64,000 nt of DNA from Parapedobacter pyrenivorans (GCF_014636865.1 NZ_BMER01000003.1:372215-436214); one strand, 5' to 3'. Positions 13,801-21,157 are shown, numbered from the stretch's first letter. Notes: generated by a model not told the origin, from the sequence alone. Numbers and translations are program-made.

Positions 13801-14274
13801 CTATCTGGAAATATCCAGGATTTCCAATTCCACTTGGCCAGCCGGCACCTGTATTTGGGCCTTATCGCCAATTGACTTACCCAGCAACCCTTGTGCTATG
13901 GGCGATTTAACTGATATTTTGCCCGCCTTAAGGTCCGCCTCTGTTTCGGACACCAGTTGGTAGGTCATTACGCTTCCGTTCTTTACGTTTTTGAGCTTGA
14001 CGATAGACAGCGCCAGTACTTTCGATGCATCCAATGTCGATTCGTCAATGACACGTGCGTTGGACAAGCTCTCCTCCAGTTTGGCAATTTTCGCCTCGTG
14101 CAACCCTTGAGCATCTTTTGCCGCATCGTACTCCGCGTTTTCCGACAAATCACCTTTGTCACGGGCTTCTGCGATTGCTTTGGCTATCTTCGCCCTACCT
14201 TCCGTTTTGAGATACTGCAACTCATCTTTGAGTTTCTCCAATCCCTCTTTGCTGTAATACGTTACTTCTGCCAT
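13801..14274 (-). CDS. greA: Transcription elongation factor GreA
   Basis: 157 residues, the standard GreA length. The N-terminal antiparallel coiled coil contains the tip motif DKGDLSENAEYDAAK (residues about 39-53), whose acidic residues reach the RNA polymerase active site to stimulate cleavage of backtracked RNA. The C-terminal FKBP-like domain ends in SPIAQGLLGKSIGD. It stands alone with its own terminator. Confidence 0.97.
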   Translation of the reverse strand: MAEVTYYSKEGLEKLKDELQYLKTEGRAKIAKAIAEARDKGDLSENAEYDAAKDAQGLHEAKIAKLEESLSNARVIDESTLDASKVLALSIVKLKNVKNGSVMTYQLVSETEADLKAGKISVKSPIAQGLLGKSIGDKAQIQVPAGQVELEILDISR

Positions 14275-14396: not shown

Positions 14397-15089
14397 TTAA
14401 GGATTATCCACAAATTTATATCCCATTCCCCTTACTGTCTGCAGATAGGCGGGTTTATCGGCATTGAGTTCGATTTTCTTGCGCAAGCGTACAATGTGCA
14501 TATCCAATGTCCGCGTATTTACATTGGAGCTATAGCCCCACACCACCTGCATCAGCTCATCCCTGCTGATAACCCGCCCCATATTTTGCAGGAAATAAAG
14601 CAGGATCCGGTTTTCCAGAATCGTTAGTTCGATCTTCTTACCGTTTCGCACCAATGAATGGATATTCGGATGATGCTCCGTTTCTCCAAATGTGTACAGG
14701 TCTGCCGCTTGCGTGTTTATAAAATACTTAATCTTATTTTCAATCATCGCGACCAAGACGTCCATACTAAACGGCTTTGTGATATAATCCGAAACCCCGA
14801 AGCTATAGGCATCGATCTTGTCTATATCCTGGGACTTGGCCGTCATCATAATGATGAGGTTTGCAAACCCGTCCTTACGTAAATTGGCACATATCTCAGC
14901 ACCTTGTTTACCCGGCAGCATCCAATCCAGCAAAACAATGTCGGGCTTTTGTTCCTGTATCAGTTTTTCGGCGTCGTTGCCGTTTCCTGCCTGGATGACC
15001 GCGTAATTCTCAGACTCAAGGCGATGAGCAACCAGAAAACGCAGGTTTTCATCGTCTTCGATGATGGCTATTTTAATGTTCTTATACAT
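14397..15089 (-). CDS. Response regulator, OmpR/PhoB family
   Basis: 230 residues from the ATG at 15089; a TTG four codons upstream is possible. The receiver domain (about 1-120) has the acidic pocket IIEDDE and the phospho-acceptor Asp55 in LLDWMLPG, with the KPF lysine near residue 105. A winged-helix DNA-binding domain (about 130-228) ends in YLQTVRGMGYKFV, the usual OmpR-class C-terminus. It lies 67 bases after the sensor kinase gene and is almost certainly its partner. The target genes are not evident. Confidence 0.94.
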   Translation of the reverse strand: MYKNIKIAIIEDDENLRFLVAHRLESENYAVIQAGNGNDAEKLIQEQKPDIVLLDWMLPGKQGAEICANLRKDGFANLIIMMTAKSQDIDKIDAYSFGVSDYITKPFSMDVLVAMIENKIKYFINTQAADLYTFGETEHHPNIHSLVRNGKKIELTILENRILLYFLQNMGRVISRDELMQVVWGYSSNVNTRTLDMHIVRLRKKIELNADKPAYLQTVRGMGYKFVDNP

Positions 15090-15156
15090 ATCCTGATACA
15101 ATTTCTTCGTTAAGTTTAAAAATCAAAGCGAAAAGTCACAACCTAGGGCAAGTTAA

Positions 15157-16824
15157 TCAATCTAACGGAAATACAATACTGAAAGTCGTGCCCCGACCCA
15201 ATTCACTATCAACGCTGATATCTCCACCCATGAAATTCACTAATTCCTTGCAAAATGCCAGCCCGAGGCCTACACTGCCTTGTTGATTATACTGGTTCTG
15301 CACGCGATAGAACTTCTTAAAAATATGCACCAATTCTTTTTTTTCAATACCGATACCTTGATCCGAAAAATGCATGATTACTTGCTTTTTTGCTTGCGTC
15401 ACCTTAATATCCAACACTTTATTGTCTGGCTTGGAATATTTGTATGCATTATCAATCAGGTTTTGAAATATGCTACCCAACAACACTGGATCGACATAAA
15501 GCGCCTTTTTCACTTCCACGATGCACTGTATCTGCAAGTCGCGGTACTTGATTTCGGAAGCCGCCAGCACCTTATTACAAAATTCGTGCAAATCGACCTC
15601 CTCTCGCTTCATTTTTATCGATTTATTTTCGATTTGTGTAAAGGAAAGCAGCGTATTCATCAGATTATTCAGCTTATCGGCCTCCTCATCCAGTATCTTG
15701 CCATAGTGTCTCCGCTCATTATCGGAAAGCTGTTTGGCACTATGGATATTATTGCCCGCTATTTTAATCACGCTCACCGGTGTCTTGAATTCATGGGTCA
15801 GATTATTGACGAAATCATATTGCAATTTAAACATGCGCTTATTTACATACAGGTTGCGGTAAATCAAATATGCAATAACCGCCAGCAGCAGGTATATCGT
15901 CATCACACCAGCCATGACGGGCAGAAATCGTCTGTTGATCTCGGACTGCAGGAACGGTCGACTTGAGCTCAGGTAAATTTTATAGTCCGCCAATGCGCCC
16001 GGCAACGGTGTCTCCGTGGTGAATAAATCCGGATCTGTATCAATGGATTCATAGACCAATGGTTGAATCGCGATATGTTGGTATAATTCGGGGACCGTAT
16101 TCGTCAGTGATAGCTTATTTGGATTGATAAAGAAGGTCAAGACATCCTGCTCGTAAACGGCATTATGTATATGATGTCCATACATCAGTTCCTTATAGGT
16201 TTTCAGATCGTCCCGCCGTGGAATATTCATGTATGATATTTTTCCGGGCGTAACCGAATAAAACACCTTAAAGATGTCATCTTCGAGCAACGCCTTGGCC
16301 GTATCGACCCGTTCGATAAAGGCTGCAAATTTCACCGCCATGTTATTGAAGTCATCCGATAAGGATAGTGGTAACTGACTGTTCTGATCGGTTGCAGACG
16401 ATGGATCCTCGTGGGCGCCGTGGGCACTGAATTGATAAACACCTTTGGGATATACAACCAGGTTATTGGCTGAAAACCCATAGTCGATATGCTCACTATT
16501 ACTCAACGAAACGTCGTAAAACACAATCCGCTCAACAAACGGATAAGCCCGCAAAATACTATCGGCATATGCGGAAACTCCGGCCGAATCCAGATAGCCT
16601 TGGTAAAACGAGATTTCCGGAATACGATTATGGAAAAAGTTATTAAATGGATCGATGTTATATTCCAATACCTCCACTTTTCGGGATGCGAATTCATTTT
16701 CGACATAAGTCACGGTCAAGTCGCGGGCAAGGAAAGTGGCCAATACAAATGAGGCAATAACAACGACAATAAAAGCACTAACCAACAGATAGTTTACACG
16801 ATAGGTGTTGCGCTGTTGTGTCAT
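15157..16824 (-). CDS. Sensor histidine kinase with large extracytoplasmic domain
   Basis: 555 residues. TM1 is about 11-33, the periplasmic domain 34-300, and TM2 about 302-323. A dimerisation and phospho-acceptor domain has His344 in NLTHEFKTPV, and the HATPase_c domain (about 445-553) has the N box NLIDNAYKYS, the DQGIGI G1 box and the SVGLGLAFCK G2 box. There is no HAMP or PAS domain. The start codon overlaps the stop of the S9-peptidase-like gene by four bases (ATGA), so the sensor and that lipoprotein are translated together. The stimulus is unknown; the 265-residue sensor region shows no motif I recognise. Confidence 0.93.
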   Translation of the reverse strand: MTQQRNTYRVNYLLVSAFIVVVIASFVLATFLARDLTVTYVENEFASRKVEVLEYNIDPFNNFFHNRIPEISFYQGYLDSAGVSAYADSILRAYPFVERIVFYDVSLSNSEHIDYGFSANNLVVYPKGVYQFSAHGAHEDPSSATDQNSQLPLSLSDDFNNMAVKFAAFIERVDTAKALLEDDIFKVFYSVTPGKISYMNIPRRDDLKTYKELMYGHHIHNAVYEQDVLTFFINPNKLSLTNTVPELYQHIAIQPLVYESIDTDPDLFTTETPLPGALADYKIYLSSSRPFLQSEINRRFLPVMAGVMTIYLLLAVIAYLIYRNLYVNKRMFKLQYDFVNNLTHEFKTPVSVIKIAGNNIHSAKQLSDNERRHYGKILDEEADKLNNLMNTLLSFTQIENKSIKMKREEVDLHEFCNKVLAASEIKYRDLQIQCIVEVKKALYVDPVLLGSIFQNLIDNAYKYSKPDNKVLDIKVTQAKKQVIMHFSDQGIGIEKKELVHIFKKFYRVQNQYNQQGSVGLGLAFCKELVNFMGGDISVDSELGRGTTFSIVFPLD

Positions 16825-18716
16825 TTCAGGTATTTATCAAAAAAATCACCCAACGCCTGGTAAAACTGGATGCGGTTGTCTTCATTACGAAAATACCGGC
16901 CCTCTTCTTCGCGCAGGATATAAGTGACAGGGATTTTTCGTTTCCTGAGTTTCTGTACAAATTGGTTGGTTTCATTAACGGCACTCCAGCCATCCTTGCC
17001 ACCCTGTGCAATGAATACGGGTATCTTGATGTGCTCCGAATGGAACACCGGAGACATCGTTTTGATCATATCGGGTTCTACCTCGGGATTGCCGATGATT
17101 TCATAGTACATTTGTAGGTAAGGTTTGAGGTGCGGGGGGATTTCCTTAAGGTACGTAAACAGGTTGGTAAACCCCGAATAAGAGGCTGCACATGCATATA
17201 GACCCGAATTGAAGCATGCACCATGCAGTGCTGAGTACCCACCAAATCCGGCTCCATAAATACCAATGCGCGCTGAATCAACGATACCTTCGTCAATTAA
17301 CCATCGCACGCCATCCGTGATATCGTCCTGTATTTTCCCGCCCCATTCCTTAAAACCAGCCGACCAAAATTCTTTTCCATAACCGGTTGATCCTCTATAA
17401 TTGACCTGGAAAACTGCAAATCCGCGATTTGCAAAAAACTGCACTTCGGGGTTGAATCCCCATTTGCTCCGGGTGCCCGGACCACCATGTGGATACACGA
17501 TCACCGGTATTTTCCTACCTGCTGCTCCCCTCGGTATCGTCAGATACCCCTGTATTTGCCGACCATCGCGCGCCCGGTATGTGACCGGCTTCATCTCAGC
17601 CAACATACAGTCTTTTAAAGCAGGGCTATTGTCCGTCAACTTCACCAGCTCGTCGCTCGACAGATCAAAATAATATATGGCACCTGGATCAGTATCAGTA
17701 AACGTACTGACTATAAAACGATTACGAGCCGTATCACGATCTATTATACTCACTTCGTAACCACTCAATTTTTGATCGATTGCGTTATAAACCTGTTCTG
17801 TCTGCTTGCTCAGGAAATGGCGTTGTTGTTTCCATGTGGCATACGTAGCATATGCCATCTCACCCCGATCAGTGGAATAGCCGCCATGGTCGATATCGAC
17901 ATCGGGGTTGCTGTAAATCATCCGCACTTCATTGCCCGTTTCCATATCAATTTCCACCAACGCCAACTTGTCTCTATTGATATTGGATAATGCAAAAACA
18001 TGACTTCGCTTGCCTTCAGAAAATCCCAATGGCATGATGGAATTCCTGAAACTGTTACTCATTACTGGTTTGAATGGCTCTTTCTCGTTGGCACGATACA
18101 GCATCGTCTCCTTAACGCTGTCACTAGCTAATGCCAAGCGTAGTTCACCATTTAAATCAGCGAACCACCTGATGATATTTCCCGGATTTTTGGCTACCAT
18201 TTCCTTCTTACACGCATCTGTACGCAGCCTATAGACATCAAAGACAGAAGAATCCCGCTCATTAAGTGAAATCAAAAAACCATTGTCTATCACCTTCGTA
18301 GGCGATATCCATCGTAGCTTTACTGGCGACGGCTGCATCAGATGTCTTACGGCCAGTGTCGTGCGATCGACAGCAAATACTTGAAGGCTATCGCGCCTTT
18401 TGTCCTTAGTAAAAATCAGTTCGTCATTATTCGCCCAAAAATAGGTCTGTACACCCAGTTCACTTTCAGATGTAATACGCTGCTCGCTATATCCCTCATC
18501 CGGATGTATAATAAATATGTTCTTTTCACCCCGATATAATCCCAAATAAGCAATGTACTTACCGTTGGGCGATATTCGGAAATTTGTCTTCTCCGGCGTA
18601 GAAAAAAAATCCGCTACCGGTATAACACGCCCCTTGTGGTTATCGCAGCCGTTCAAACAGCCTGAAATAACCACTACGAAAATCAAATAGATAACACTGC
18701 GCACCATAGTAACCAT
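16821..18716 (-). CDS. S9 (prolyl oligopeptidase-like) lipoprotein, catalytic residues missing
   Basis: 631 residues from the ATG at 18716; a GTG at 18734 and an ATG at 18707 are alternatives. The signal peptide ends in a lipobox (VISGC or LNGC), so it is a predicted lipoprotein. Residues about 35-375 form a beta-propeller and about 385-631 an alpha/beta-hydrolase domain with an intact HGGPG oxyanion segment (410-414). The nucleophile motif, usually GxSxGG, reads GAGFGG with Gly490 in place of Ser. The usual EGHGF reads EGRYF with Arg607 in place of His. Only the catalytic Asp (Asp575) remains. The ORF is intact, so this looks like a deliberate non-enzyme, perhaps a peptide-binding sensor. 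It is coupled to the kinase gene by ATGA. Confidence 0.88.
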   Translation of the reverse strand: MVTMVRSVIYLIFVVVISGCLNGCDNHKGRVIPVADFFSTPEKTNFRISPNGKYIAYLGLYRGEKNIFIIHPDEGYSEQRITSESELGVQTYFWANNDELIFTKDKRRDSLQVFAVDRTTLAVRHLMQPSPVKLRWISPTKVIDNGFLISLNERDSSVFDVYRLRTDACKKEMVAKNPGNIIRWFADLNGELRLALASDSVKETMLYRANEKEPFKPVMSNSFRNSIMPLGFSEGKRSHVFALSNINRDKLALVEIDMETGNEVRMIYSNPDVDIDHGGYSTDRGEMAYATYATWKQQRHFLSKQTEQVYNAIDQKLSGYEVSIIDRDTARNRFIVSTFTDTDPGAIYYFDLSSDELVKLTDNSPALKDCMLAEMKPVTYRARDGRQIQGYLTIPRGAAGRKIPVIVYPHGGPGTRSKWGFNPEVQFFANRGFAVFQVNYRGSTGYGKEFWSAGFKEWGGKIQDDITDGVRWLIDEGIVDSARIGIYGAGFGGYSALHGACFNSGLYACAASYSGFTNLFTYLKEIPPHLKPYLQMYYEIIGNPEVEPDMIKTMSPVFHSEHIKIPVFIAQGGKDGWSAVNETNQFVQKLRKRKIPVTYILREEEGRYFRNEDNRIQFYQALGDFFDKYLK

Positions 18717-19732: not shown

Positions 19733-20143
19733 TCAGGATAGTTCCTCGTTGAGCTCATCCTCGTATTTGGGATCGTACTTCACTTTGGGGGTCAGGTAAT
19801 GTAACAGAATAAGCCTTGAATAGCGAAAGTTGAATGGAGCAAAAATCAGGATAGCCACCATCAACACCCCCAGGTATACCCAAGGAGATTCGCTTTTGGT
19901 AAATTGGTACGTGAGCAAACCGATCACGATCACCTGTGCCATCGAGAGCCCATAGCTCACATACATCGCCGCGTAGAAATAGCCGGGCTCAATCTCAAAG
20001 CGGAATCCGCAATGGGGGCACACATCATTCATGCGTTGCCTTTTGAAGCTATAGGTATTTCCGACAAACATATGCCCCACTCTACATTTAGGGCATCTGG
20101 AAGCCATGACCGCTTTAATTTTGGATGTATGTGACGCGGCCAT
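19733..20143 (-). CDS. DUF983 family protein with zinc ribbon and two membrane helices
   Basis: 136 residues. The N-terminus carries two CPxC knuckles (CPKC about 18-21, CPHC about 42-45) likely to bind zinc. Two hydrophobic helices follow (about 60-80 and 88-110), and the tail is acidic. This is the DUF983 layout. In some other phyla DUF983 genes stand beside cytochrome oxidase assembly genes, which hints at a role there, but no oxidase gene is in this window. It is followed upstream on the same strand by a small CxxC membrane protein, with seven bases between them. Confidence 0.8.
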   Translation of the reverse strand: MAASHTSKIKAVMASRCPKCRVGHMFVGNTYSFKRQRMNDVCPHCGFRFEIEPGYFYAAMYVSYGLSMAQVIVIGLLTYQFTKSESPWVYLGVLMVAILIFAPFNFRYSRLILLHYLTPKVKYDPKYEDELNEELS

Positions 20144-20150
20144 TGGAAAA

Positions 20151-20429
20151 CTAATTCAGCACGATCGGATCATCGTCCACGTTCACGGTTTTTTTACCCC
20201 GATATCGCTTGTACCAAAGCAAACCTACCCCTGCGGTCGCTAAGTATGGAATTGCCAACAGAAACAATATCCCTTTATTGAGGCCCTTTCCTTGTGTATT
20301 ACCGTTTTCCGTAGCGTTTTCAGCCGTTAGTGTACACATGGCACATTGCGCATCGGCACGATCAGGTATCGCTACCGTCAATGAGGCAACCACTACCATC
20401 GCCCCCATAAAGCGCTTGATCTTATTCAT
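20151..20429 (-). CDS. Small exported CxxC membrane protein, function unknown
   Basis: 92 residues. A signal peptide ends at about ADA-Q (residue 27), immediately followed by CAMC (29-32). Next come an Asn/Thr/Gly-rich linker and one transmembrane helix (about 54-72) with a basic cytoplasmic end. The Cys pair would lie outside the membrane, where it could bind copper or take part in thiol exchange; that is inference. Similar short proteins occur beside DUF983 genes in Bacteroidota as far as I remember. No function is known to me. Confidence 0.7.
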   Translation of the reverse strand: MNKIKRFMGAMVVVASLTVAIPDRADAQCAMCTLTAENATENGNTQGKGLNKGILFLLAIPYLATAGVGLLWYKRYRGKKTVNVDDDPIVLN

Positions 20430-20461
20430 AGCACAAAGTTACAACTAATCTATCATATCTA

Positions 20462-21157
20462 CTATTGATCATCGAATAGTTCAAAACGATCCCAGAAACC
20501 ATCTTTGGGCAATTTAGCAATAATTTCGATGGGTTCCTTCCGGATGGGATGGATAAACGACAGCTTTTTGGCATGCAAACAAATGGATCGCCGTAGGCTC
20601 CCACGTGGATAACCATATTTATGGTCTCCTACGATAGGGCATCCCATGGATGCCAATTGGGCACGGATTTGATGGGTGCGTCCTGTCAACGGGTAAACTT
20701 CAATGAGGTAATACCCATCCAATTCCCCGAGCAAATGGTAATCTAATTCTGCATAAACCCGGCCCTGGGCAGCTTCAGCATGGGTTTTGGTGATGTTTTG
20801 TGTGCGGTCCCGCGAAAGCCAATGTGCCAATTTACCTTCGGGCTCTTGGGGTGGTTTGCGCACCACTGCCCAATAGGTCTTTTGGATTTCCCGATCCTTG
20901 AAAAGTTGCTGCATTCGCTCCAATCCCTTACTTGTCTTGGAAAACAGAATCAGCCCGCTTACCGGACGGTCAAGTCGGTGTACCACCCCGACAAAAGCAC
21001 CGTTGGGCTTATTATATTTTTTTGTCAGGTATTTATTCACCATATCTTCCAGCGGCTCATCGCCACTTGGATCGGCTTGCACAAGGTAACCCGCACGTTT
21101 ATTTACGGCAAGCAAGTGGTTATCTTCGTAGATGATGTCGTTGTCGGTAATAGGCAT
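20462..21157 (-). CDS. RluA-family RNA pseudouridine synthase
   Basis: 231 residues, catalytic domain only, without an S4 domain. The active-site motif VHRLDRPVSGLILFSKT (about 59-75) contains the conserved Asp. GRTHQIRAQLASMGCPIVGDHKYG near residue 155 is the second family motif. It isomerises uridine in rRNA or tRNA. The exact target (RluA, RluC, RluD or TruC type) cannot be decided from sequence alone. It appears monocistronic. Confidence 0.92.
   Translation of the reverse strand: MPITDNDIIYEDNHLLAVNKRAGYLVQADPSGDEPLEDMVNKYLTKKYNKPNGAFVGVVHRLDRPVSGLILFSKTSKGLERMQQLFKDREIQKTYWAVVRKPPQEPEGKLAHWLSRDRTQNITKTHAEAAQGRVYAELDYHLLGELDGYYLIEVYPLTGRTHQIRAQLASMGCPIVGDHKYGYPRGSLRRSICLHAKKLSFIHPIRKEPIEIIAKLPKDGFWDRFELFDDQ

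Follow-up and report, generated by a model that had tools for sequence, protein, structure and literature searches.

Accessory lipoproteins of sensor kinases have a known precedent. The outer-membrane lipoprotein QseG of Enterobacteriaceae, encoded in the same operon as its partner kinase QseE, increases the autokinase activity of QseE by binding to it directly (PMC6075780, PMC12691602). Here we describe a comparable gene trio in a 64,000-nucleotide stretch of Parapedobacter pyrenivorans (GCF_014636865.1, NZ_BMER01000003.1:372215-436214; hereafter the window, with positions counted from its first letter), in which a lipoprotein of the S9 peptidase family that has lost two of its three catalytic residues is encoded directly ahead of a sensor histidine kinase (HK) and a response regulator (RR). 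As with QseG, QseE and QseF, lipoprotein, kinase and regulator come from one operon. The present system differs in its lipoprotein, a propeller-hydrolase derived from a peptidase, in its kinase sensor, for which a dCACHE-like fold is predicted, and in its OmpR-type regulator. By analogy, the S9 trio may work like QseG-QseE, to which it is apparently unrelated in origin, the fold found for its lipoprotein being that of S9, and we claim no QseG family membership for it.

A catalytically dead S9 fold with a proposed membrane partner has a parallel in eukaryotes, where the animal proteins DPP6 and DPP10 are auxiliary subunits of Kv4 channels; the profile of the S9 lipoprotein matched, among others, 4wjl ('Inactive dipeptidyl peptidase 10'). 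There the partner is a channel and catalysis was lost independently. LpqB, a lipoprotein from another phylum, likewise has a β-propeller and is encoded with a two-component system, and it is not known to have a peptidase domain. The system to which it belongs, MtrA-MtrB-LpqB of Actinobacteria, is named in PMC10714768. HbpS of Streptomyces, a secreted redox-stress protein that works with SenS-SenR (PMC4991794), is likewise an extra-cytoplasmic accessory protein with its own kinase and regulator, and is unrelated to peptidases. The S9 trio resembles these systems in part, and we assign it to none of them.

In the open-access literature, a scope that leaves most subscription journals outside, we found no paper that pairs a kinase with a lipoprotein of the S9 or acylaminoacyl-peptidase type, and no useful precedent for a pseudoprotease-kinase pairing. 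Kinase accessory proteins are known, few of them have a clear enzyme ancestry, and pseudoenzymes usually arise as single events. What appears to be new is a two-component system with a probable accessory lipoprotein that descends from a peptidase and shows a rare parallel loss of catalysis: many losses in one family, within an otherwise constant operon and with live relatives whose active site is intact. The two-component system itself, with its predicted dCACHE-like sensor, is family-wide, occurring in Pedobacter, Sphingobacterium, Mucilaginibacter and Parapedobacter, and we found no study of it.

Active site of the Parapedobacter lipoprotein

The S9 (acylaminoacyl-peptidase-like) gene lies at 16821..18716 on the minus strand, as do all window features given below, and encodes 631 residues, or 637 if an upstream GTG is taken as the start. 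The solved acylaminoacyl peptidase 5l8s is matched over the full length of the protein (E 3e-65), and the α/β-hydrolase domain PF00326 (residues 419-631, 16824..17462) over the whole domain length (131.9 bits). The nucleophile Ser is replaced by Gly490 (codon GGA, 17247..17249) in the motif GAGFGG and the catalytic His by Arg607 (codon CGG, 16896..16898) in EGRYF; the catalytic Asp575 (16992..16994) is kept in GGKDGWS. The 5l8s alignment places Gly490 on GGSYGG and Arg607 on DEGHGF. The first-pass annotation of this DNA had read a full-length intact frame with both replacements, and the codons and the PF00326 and 5l8s alignments agree with it; the coordinates also confirm its report that the S9 gene overlaps the HK start by ATGA (16821..16824) and that the RR gene follows.

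This loss is not a matter of chance, because GxSxGG is kept by every other full-length S9 protein that this genome encodes (eight in all) and the loss is common to all Parapedobacter species sampled. Judged by its triad, the lipoprotein is a sequence-defined pseudoenzyme of the S9 family. Retention of the oxyanion motif HGGPG, to which the annotation had also pointed, carries little weight as an argument because the motif is unconserved among homologues encoded beside the same kinase (hereafter coupled), which have HDGPN, HNGPS, RSNPE and others.

Conservation of the gene trio

Across 151 genomes of the Sphingobacteriaceae, a family of soil and water bacteria, 141 carry an S9 orthologue and 146 the kinase, recognized by its sensor domain. 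All 141 S9-bearing genomes have the kinase, and no S9 protein of the coupled clade was found without it in these 151 genomes, which makes the co-occurrence on which the sensor reading of the annotation depended a family-wide one. The complete genome G067 has neither S9 nor HK. In all coupled loci examined, the HK gene is directly downstream of S9 on the same strand, with a median gap of 6 nucleotides between the S9 stop and the HK start and a gap below 50 nucleotides in 151 of 152 distinct loci. True overlap of the two genes occurs in 12 of the 152, and the ATGA form is mainly a Parapedobacter feature. The RR gene comes next in every locus whose contig or fetched stretch reaches far enough (142/142). 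When named loci were instead found through the kinase sensor (n = 80), S9 was upstream in 79, and the remaining locus, L255, ends at a contig edge.

Sequence and profile searches with the kinase sensor domain gave no match in 285 other Bacteroidia genomes, and the coupling therefore cannot be traced through the kinase beyond the Sphingobacteriaceae.

Repeated loss of the catalytic serine

We scored 154 distinct coupled proteins, in 153 of which the Ser position could be read. It holds Ser in 36, Gly in 107, Arg in seven, Glu in two and Asn in one, so that Ser is gone in 117 of the 153 scorable proteins. At the His position, 47 of the 154 have His and the remainder have Arg, Lys, Asn, Phe, Tyr, Thr, Ser, Ala or others, and Asp is kept in 151 of the 154. 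Ser tends to be lost before His, as 12 coupled proteins lack only Ser and one lacks only His. Dead and live members share the nucleophile-elbow backbone, G-x-x-F-G-G, with little or no variation, and sequence relatives located away from this kinase, both within the family and across the class, keep Ser-Asp-His without exception (28/28). Two genomes (G004 and G046; loci L137 and L138) carry a dead coupled copy together with a second, uncoupled copy with an intact triad; these second copies group with the class-wide enzymes and were possibly regained by transfer.

Such a pattern of residues might reflect a changed chemistry, in which the Gly and Arg replacements confer a different activity that uses Asp575 or another residue. 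In its favour, Asp is retained in 115 of the 117 Ser-less members, and a 55-protein clade that holds Parapedobacter and Sphingobacterium has Arg or Lys in place of His without exception. We nevertheless regard this explanation as very unlikely: other dead clades have Thr, Ser, Asn, Phe, Tyr, Ala or a deletion in place of His, and Arg, Glu or Asn in place of Ser, and the retained Asp can be explained as part of a structural salt bridge. The Arg or Lys at the His position hints at such a conserved bridge to the retained Asp.

The coupled S9 proteins group as a single clade (local support 100), and the uncoupled, triad-bearing enzymes from across the class fall outside it. Parsimony places at least 14 changes of the Ser state on an S9 tree built with the catalytic columns removed and again 14 on an independent HK+RR tree, against about 30 for shuffled labels, and a Dollo count, which admits losses only, gives 17. 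Several inner nodes are weakly supported, and the loss count could move by a few; that there were many independent Ser losses is a robust conclusion. For the ancestor of the coupled clade, a two-state likelihood model favours Ser by 7.6 log units and His by 10.1. Since trees and likelihood give an intact coupled ancestor followed by many losses, the order read from these sequences is that the operon first took up an active enzyme, whose catalysis was then abandoned on many occasions. The association of S9 with the kinase does not depend on catalysis, which has been lost repeatedly; the system was not built on a dead enzyme.

Predicted structures and selection

An AlphaFold2 model of the S9 lipoprotein, built with 63 orthologues, shows an intact propeller-hydrolase fold (pLDDT 91, pTM 0.89), with the β-propeller half spanning approximately residues 21-418 (17463..18656). 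Its best matches among solved structures are S9 acylaminoacyl peptidases and carboxypeptidases, headed by 5l8s (TM 0.76). The window protein is like these acylaminoacyl peptidases in domain order and fold, and differs from them in having neither Ser nor His, in its predicted lipid anchor and in being encoded with a kinase. The anchor is suggested by a signal peptide and the lipobox I-S-G-C at residues 17-20 (18657..18668), with predicted lipidation at Cys20; a lipobox-like motif recurs in 124 of the 154 coupled homologues, and the window protein appears to have no obvious surface-export signal after its lipobox.

The sensor of the kinase is less readily placed. A Pfam scan of the kinase found no sensor family, and a profile of the sensor found nothing among PDB sequences up to E 1. 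Its AlphaFold2 model (61 sequences, pLDDT 84) has a double-PAS-like fold between two membrane helices; the region, a periplasmic domain at HK residues 28-306 with the flanking transmembrane ends, corresponds to 15907..16743. Foldseek on the sensor alone gave weak matches (best E 0.018), and the assignment is owed to VIA-align, which returned many dCACHE sensor domains of chemoreceptors and kinases (Z 9-10.0, about 175-215 of 283 residues aligned), its top rows being dominated by dCACHE or related sensor domains. On this model, the sensor is likely to be dCACHE-like.

Dead S9 genes show the marks of constraint. Among close pairs (NG86), which are not independent and in which the dead sample is mostly Sphingobacterium, the median dN/dS of dead S9 is about 0.03 (50 pairs) against 0.014 for their kinases, and that of live S9 is 0.055 against 0.043. 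Full length is preserved in 115 of the 117 Ser-less copies. We conclude that constraint acts on the dead S9 proteins and is accompanied by some relaxation or by faster adaptation; their reading as pseudogenes was ruled out by dN/dS and the open frames. Irregular copies occur in two genomes. In G141 (L301:2948-4936), S9 is frameshifted into frames of 500 and 176 codons beside an intact HK and RR, through either real decay or a sequencing error. In G122 (L174:2361-3897), a homologue is missing about 120 propeller residues and reads GTGFGG, with Ser lost, and EGHTF, with His kept.

These two copies, the tight S9-HK spacing and the faster divergence of S9 in dead clades are what one would expect of a decaying gene that is kept only because its translation drives expression of the kinase through the short spacing or overlap. 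That account is largely refuted, and we give it the least credence of all, given the low dN/dS of dead pairs and the preserved length of nearly all Ser-less copies, the confidently predicted intact fold and the restriction of real overlap to just 12 of 152 loci.

Proposed role of the lipoprotein

Taken together, the linkage, the joint absence of S9 and kinase from G067, the lack of uncoupled clade members in the family, an intact fold under selection and a dispensable catalysis point to a role that is linked to the kinase and does not involve catalysis. On balance, we think that S9 is probably an accessory lipoprotein, or co-receptor, of the kinase for which catalysis is dispensable, and that the three genes form one sensory unit. 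In the most economical version, it would bind and modulate the kinase sensor in the manner of QseG and QseE, with the peptidase cavity as its ligand pocket. An intact, acylaminoacyl-peptidase-like S9 enzyme would have been recruited in the Sphingobacteriaceae ancestor upstream of a dCACHE-type HK and an OmpR-type RR, and its function would then have shifted to that of a non-catalytic, lipid-anchored subunit, presumably at the membrane in the periplasm. There the cavity that separates propeller from hydrolase might take up a ligand, most likely a peptide or acyl-peptide, or the subunit might simply cap the kinase sensor, and through contact with the dCACHE domain it could set the balance of kinase and phosphatase activities. 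Ser would decay, on at least 14 occasions, because turnover is unneeded for an accessory role, with His going next and with the fold, the backbone of the nucleophile elbow and the catalytic Asp retained.

Three observations weigh against this reading. First, Ser and His are both kept in 35 of the 153 coupled proteins, and S9 may still be an enzyme in some species. Second, five genomes of one genus (code g10; G049, G010, G033, G060 and G070, loci L158-L162) have HK-RR and no detectable S9 anywhere; the persistence of HK-RR there means that S9 is not strictly required. These genomes are small, at about 2 Mb, and in the two g10 loci that were read (L158 and L162) a divergent TPR gene stands upstream of the kinase. 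They amount to a natural test of how the kinase functions when the lipoprotein is missing. Third, the ratio of S9 to kinase distances is 1.55 in dead clades and 1.04 in live ones, as expected if constraint was relaxed. The first of these also bears on the annotation, which had proposed a non-enzymatic role and had named coupled homologues with both residues as evidence that would count against it. Contrary to what it expected, not every protein encoded next to this kinase has lost Ser and His; a non-enzymatic role tied to the kinase gains from the family-wide association and from dead copies that are intact under purifying selection. The peptide or peptidoglycan fragment that the annotation suggested as ligand would be a putative one, and direct contact with the kinase a putative contact.

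The intact triads of those 35 proteins and of the inferred ancestor could instead mean that S9 in its ancestral form produced or broke down what the dCACHE kinase senses, for example amino acids freed from peptides, and that the dead versions bind and buffer this ligand without touching the kinase. Amino acids and other small molecules are the ligands of most dCACHE domains among the structural matches, which would suit such a role. We consider it unlikely, although it is the strongest of the alternatives: the repeated and complete loss of catalysis means that producing the ligand cannot be the conserved role, and free buffering needs no such tight linkage in every genome.

Operon position alone suggests co-expression and not contact, and S9 might be a co-regulated effector, an output or housekeeping protein of the envelope that stands outside the sensor in a structural or chaperone-like role. 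The HK-RR pairs of g10 that do without S9 fit this explanation. It seems to us a little less probable again, given that coupled-clade S9 is never found without the kinase in the Sphingobacteriaceae and that all 28 uncoupled relatives keep the triad, which indicates that the change of role follows coupling.

Returning to S9 as an accessory subunit, a bolder form of the proposal is that a peptidase was captured once as a kinase subunit and lost its Ser at least 14 times in parallel while bound to the kinase, its true function being to control the kinase in response to a ligand that occupies a peptidase-shaped cavity. We advance this tentatively, as a conjecture with somewhat less than an even chance of being right. 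If it is true, the parallel Ser losses amount to a natural replicate experiment on the function of the S9 subunit. As live and dead orthologues stand beside the same kinase, the role of an enzyme fold that does not cut is directly testable by comparison.

Locus context and a possible second form of the association

The kinase gene (15157..16824) encodes 555 residues with HisKA and HATPase_c domains and retains the H-box NLTHEFKTP and the ATP-binding boxes. It is followed by the gene for an OmpR/PhoB-type RR of 234 residues (14397..15101, with the start perhaps at the ATG at 15089), which retains the phospho-accepting Asp and the Lys. RprX-RprY of Bacteroides was considered as an identity for the pair and rejected, the RR scoring 119.4 bits, below the cut-off of 370 bits for the NCBIfam RprY equivalog.

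Outside the Sphingobacteriaceae, G387, the one genome of its family in the set searched, encodes a dead S9 protein of the coupled clade (L298:7455-11725; GAFFGG, EGRGM). Its gene is divergently transcribed from an HK-RR pair with an apparently different sensor, possibly a second form of S9/HK-RR association.

By sequence recognition, a GreA-type gene lies downstream of the RR gene in the window (13801-14274, minus strand), while the opposite flank of the trio has a DUF983-like and a pseudouridine-synthase-like gene (19733-21157, minus strand). The neighbours of the window trio recur in L301, and the position of the locus is therefore partly syntenic.

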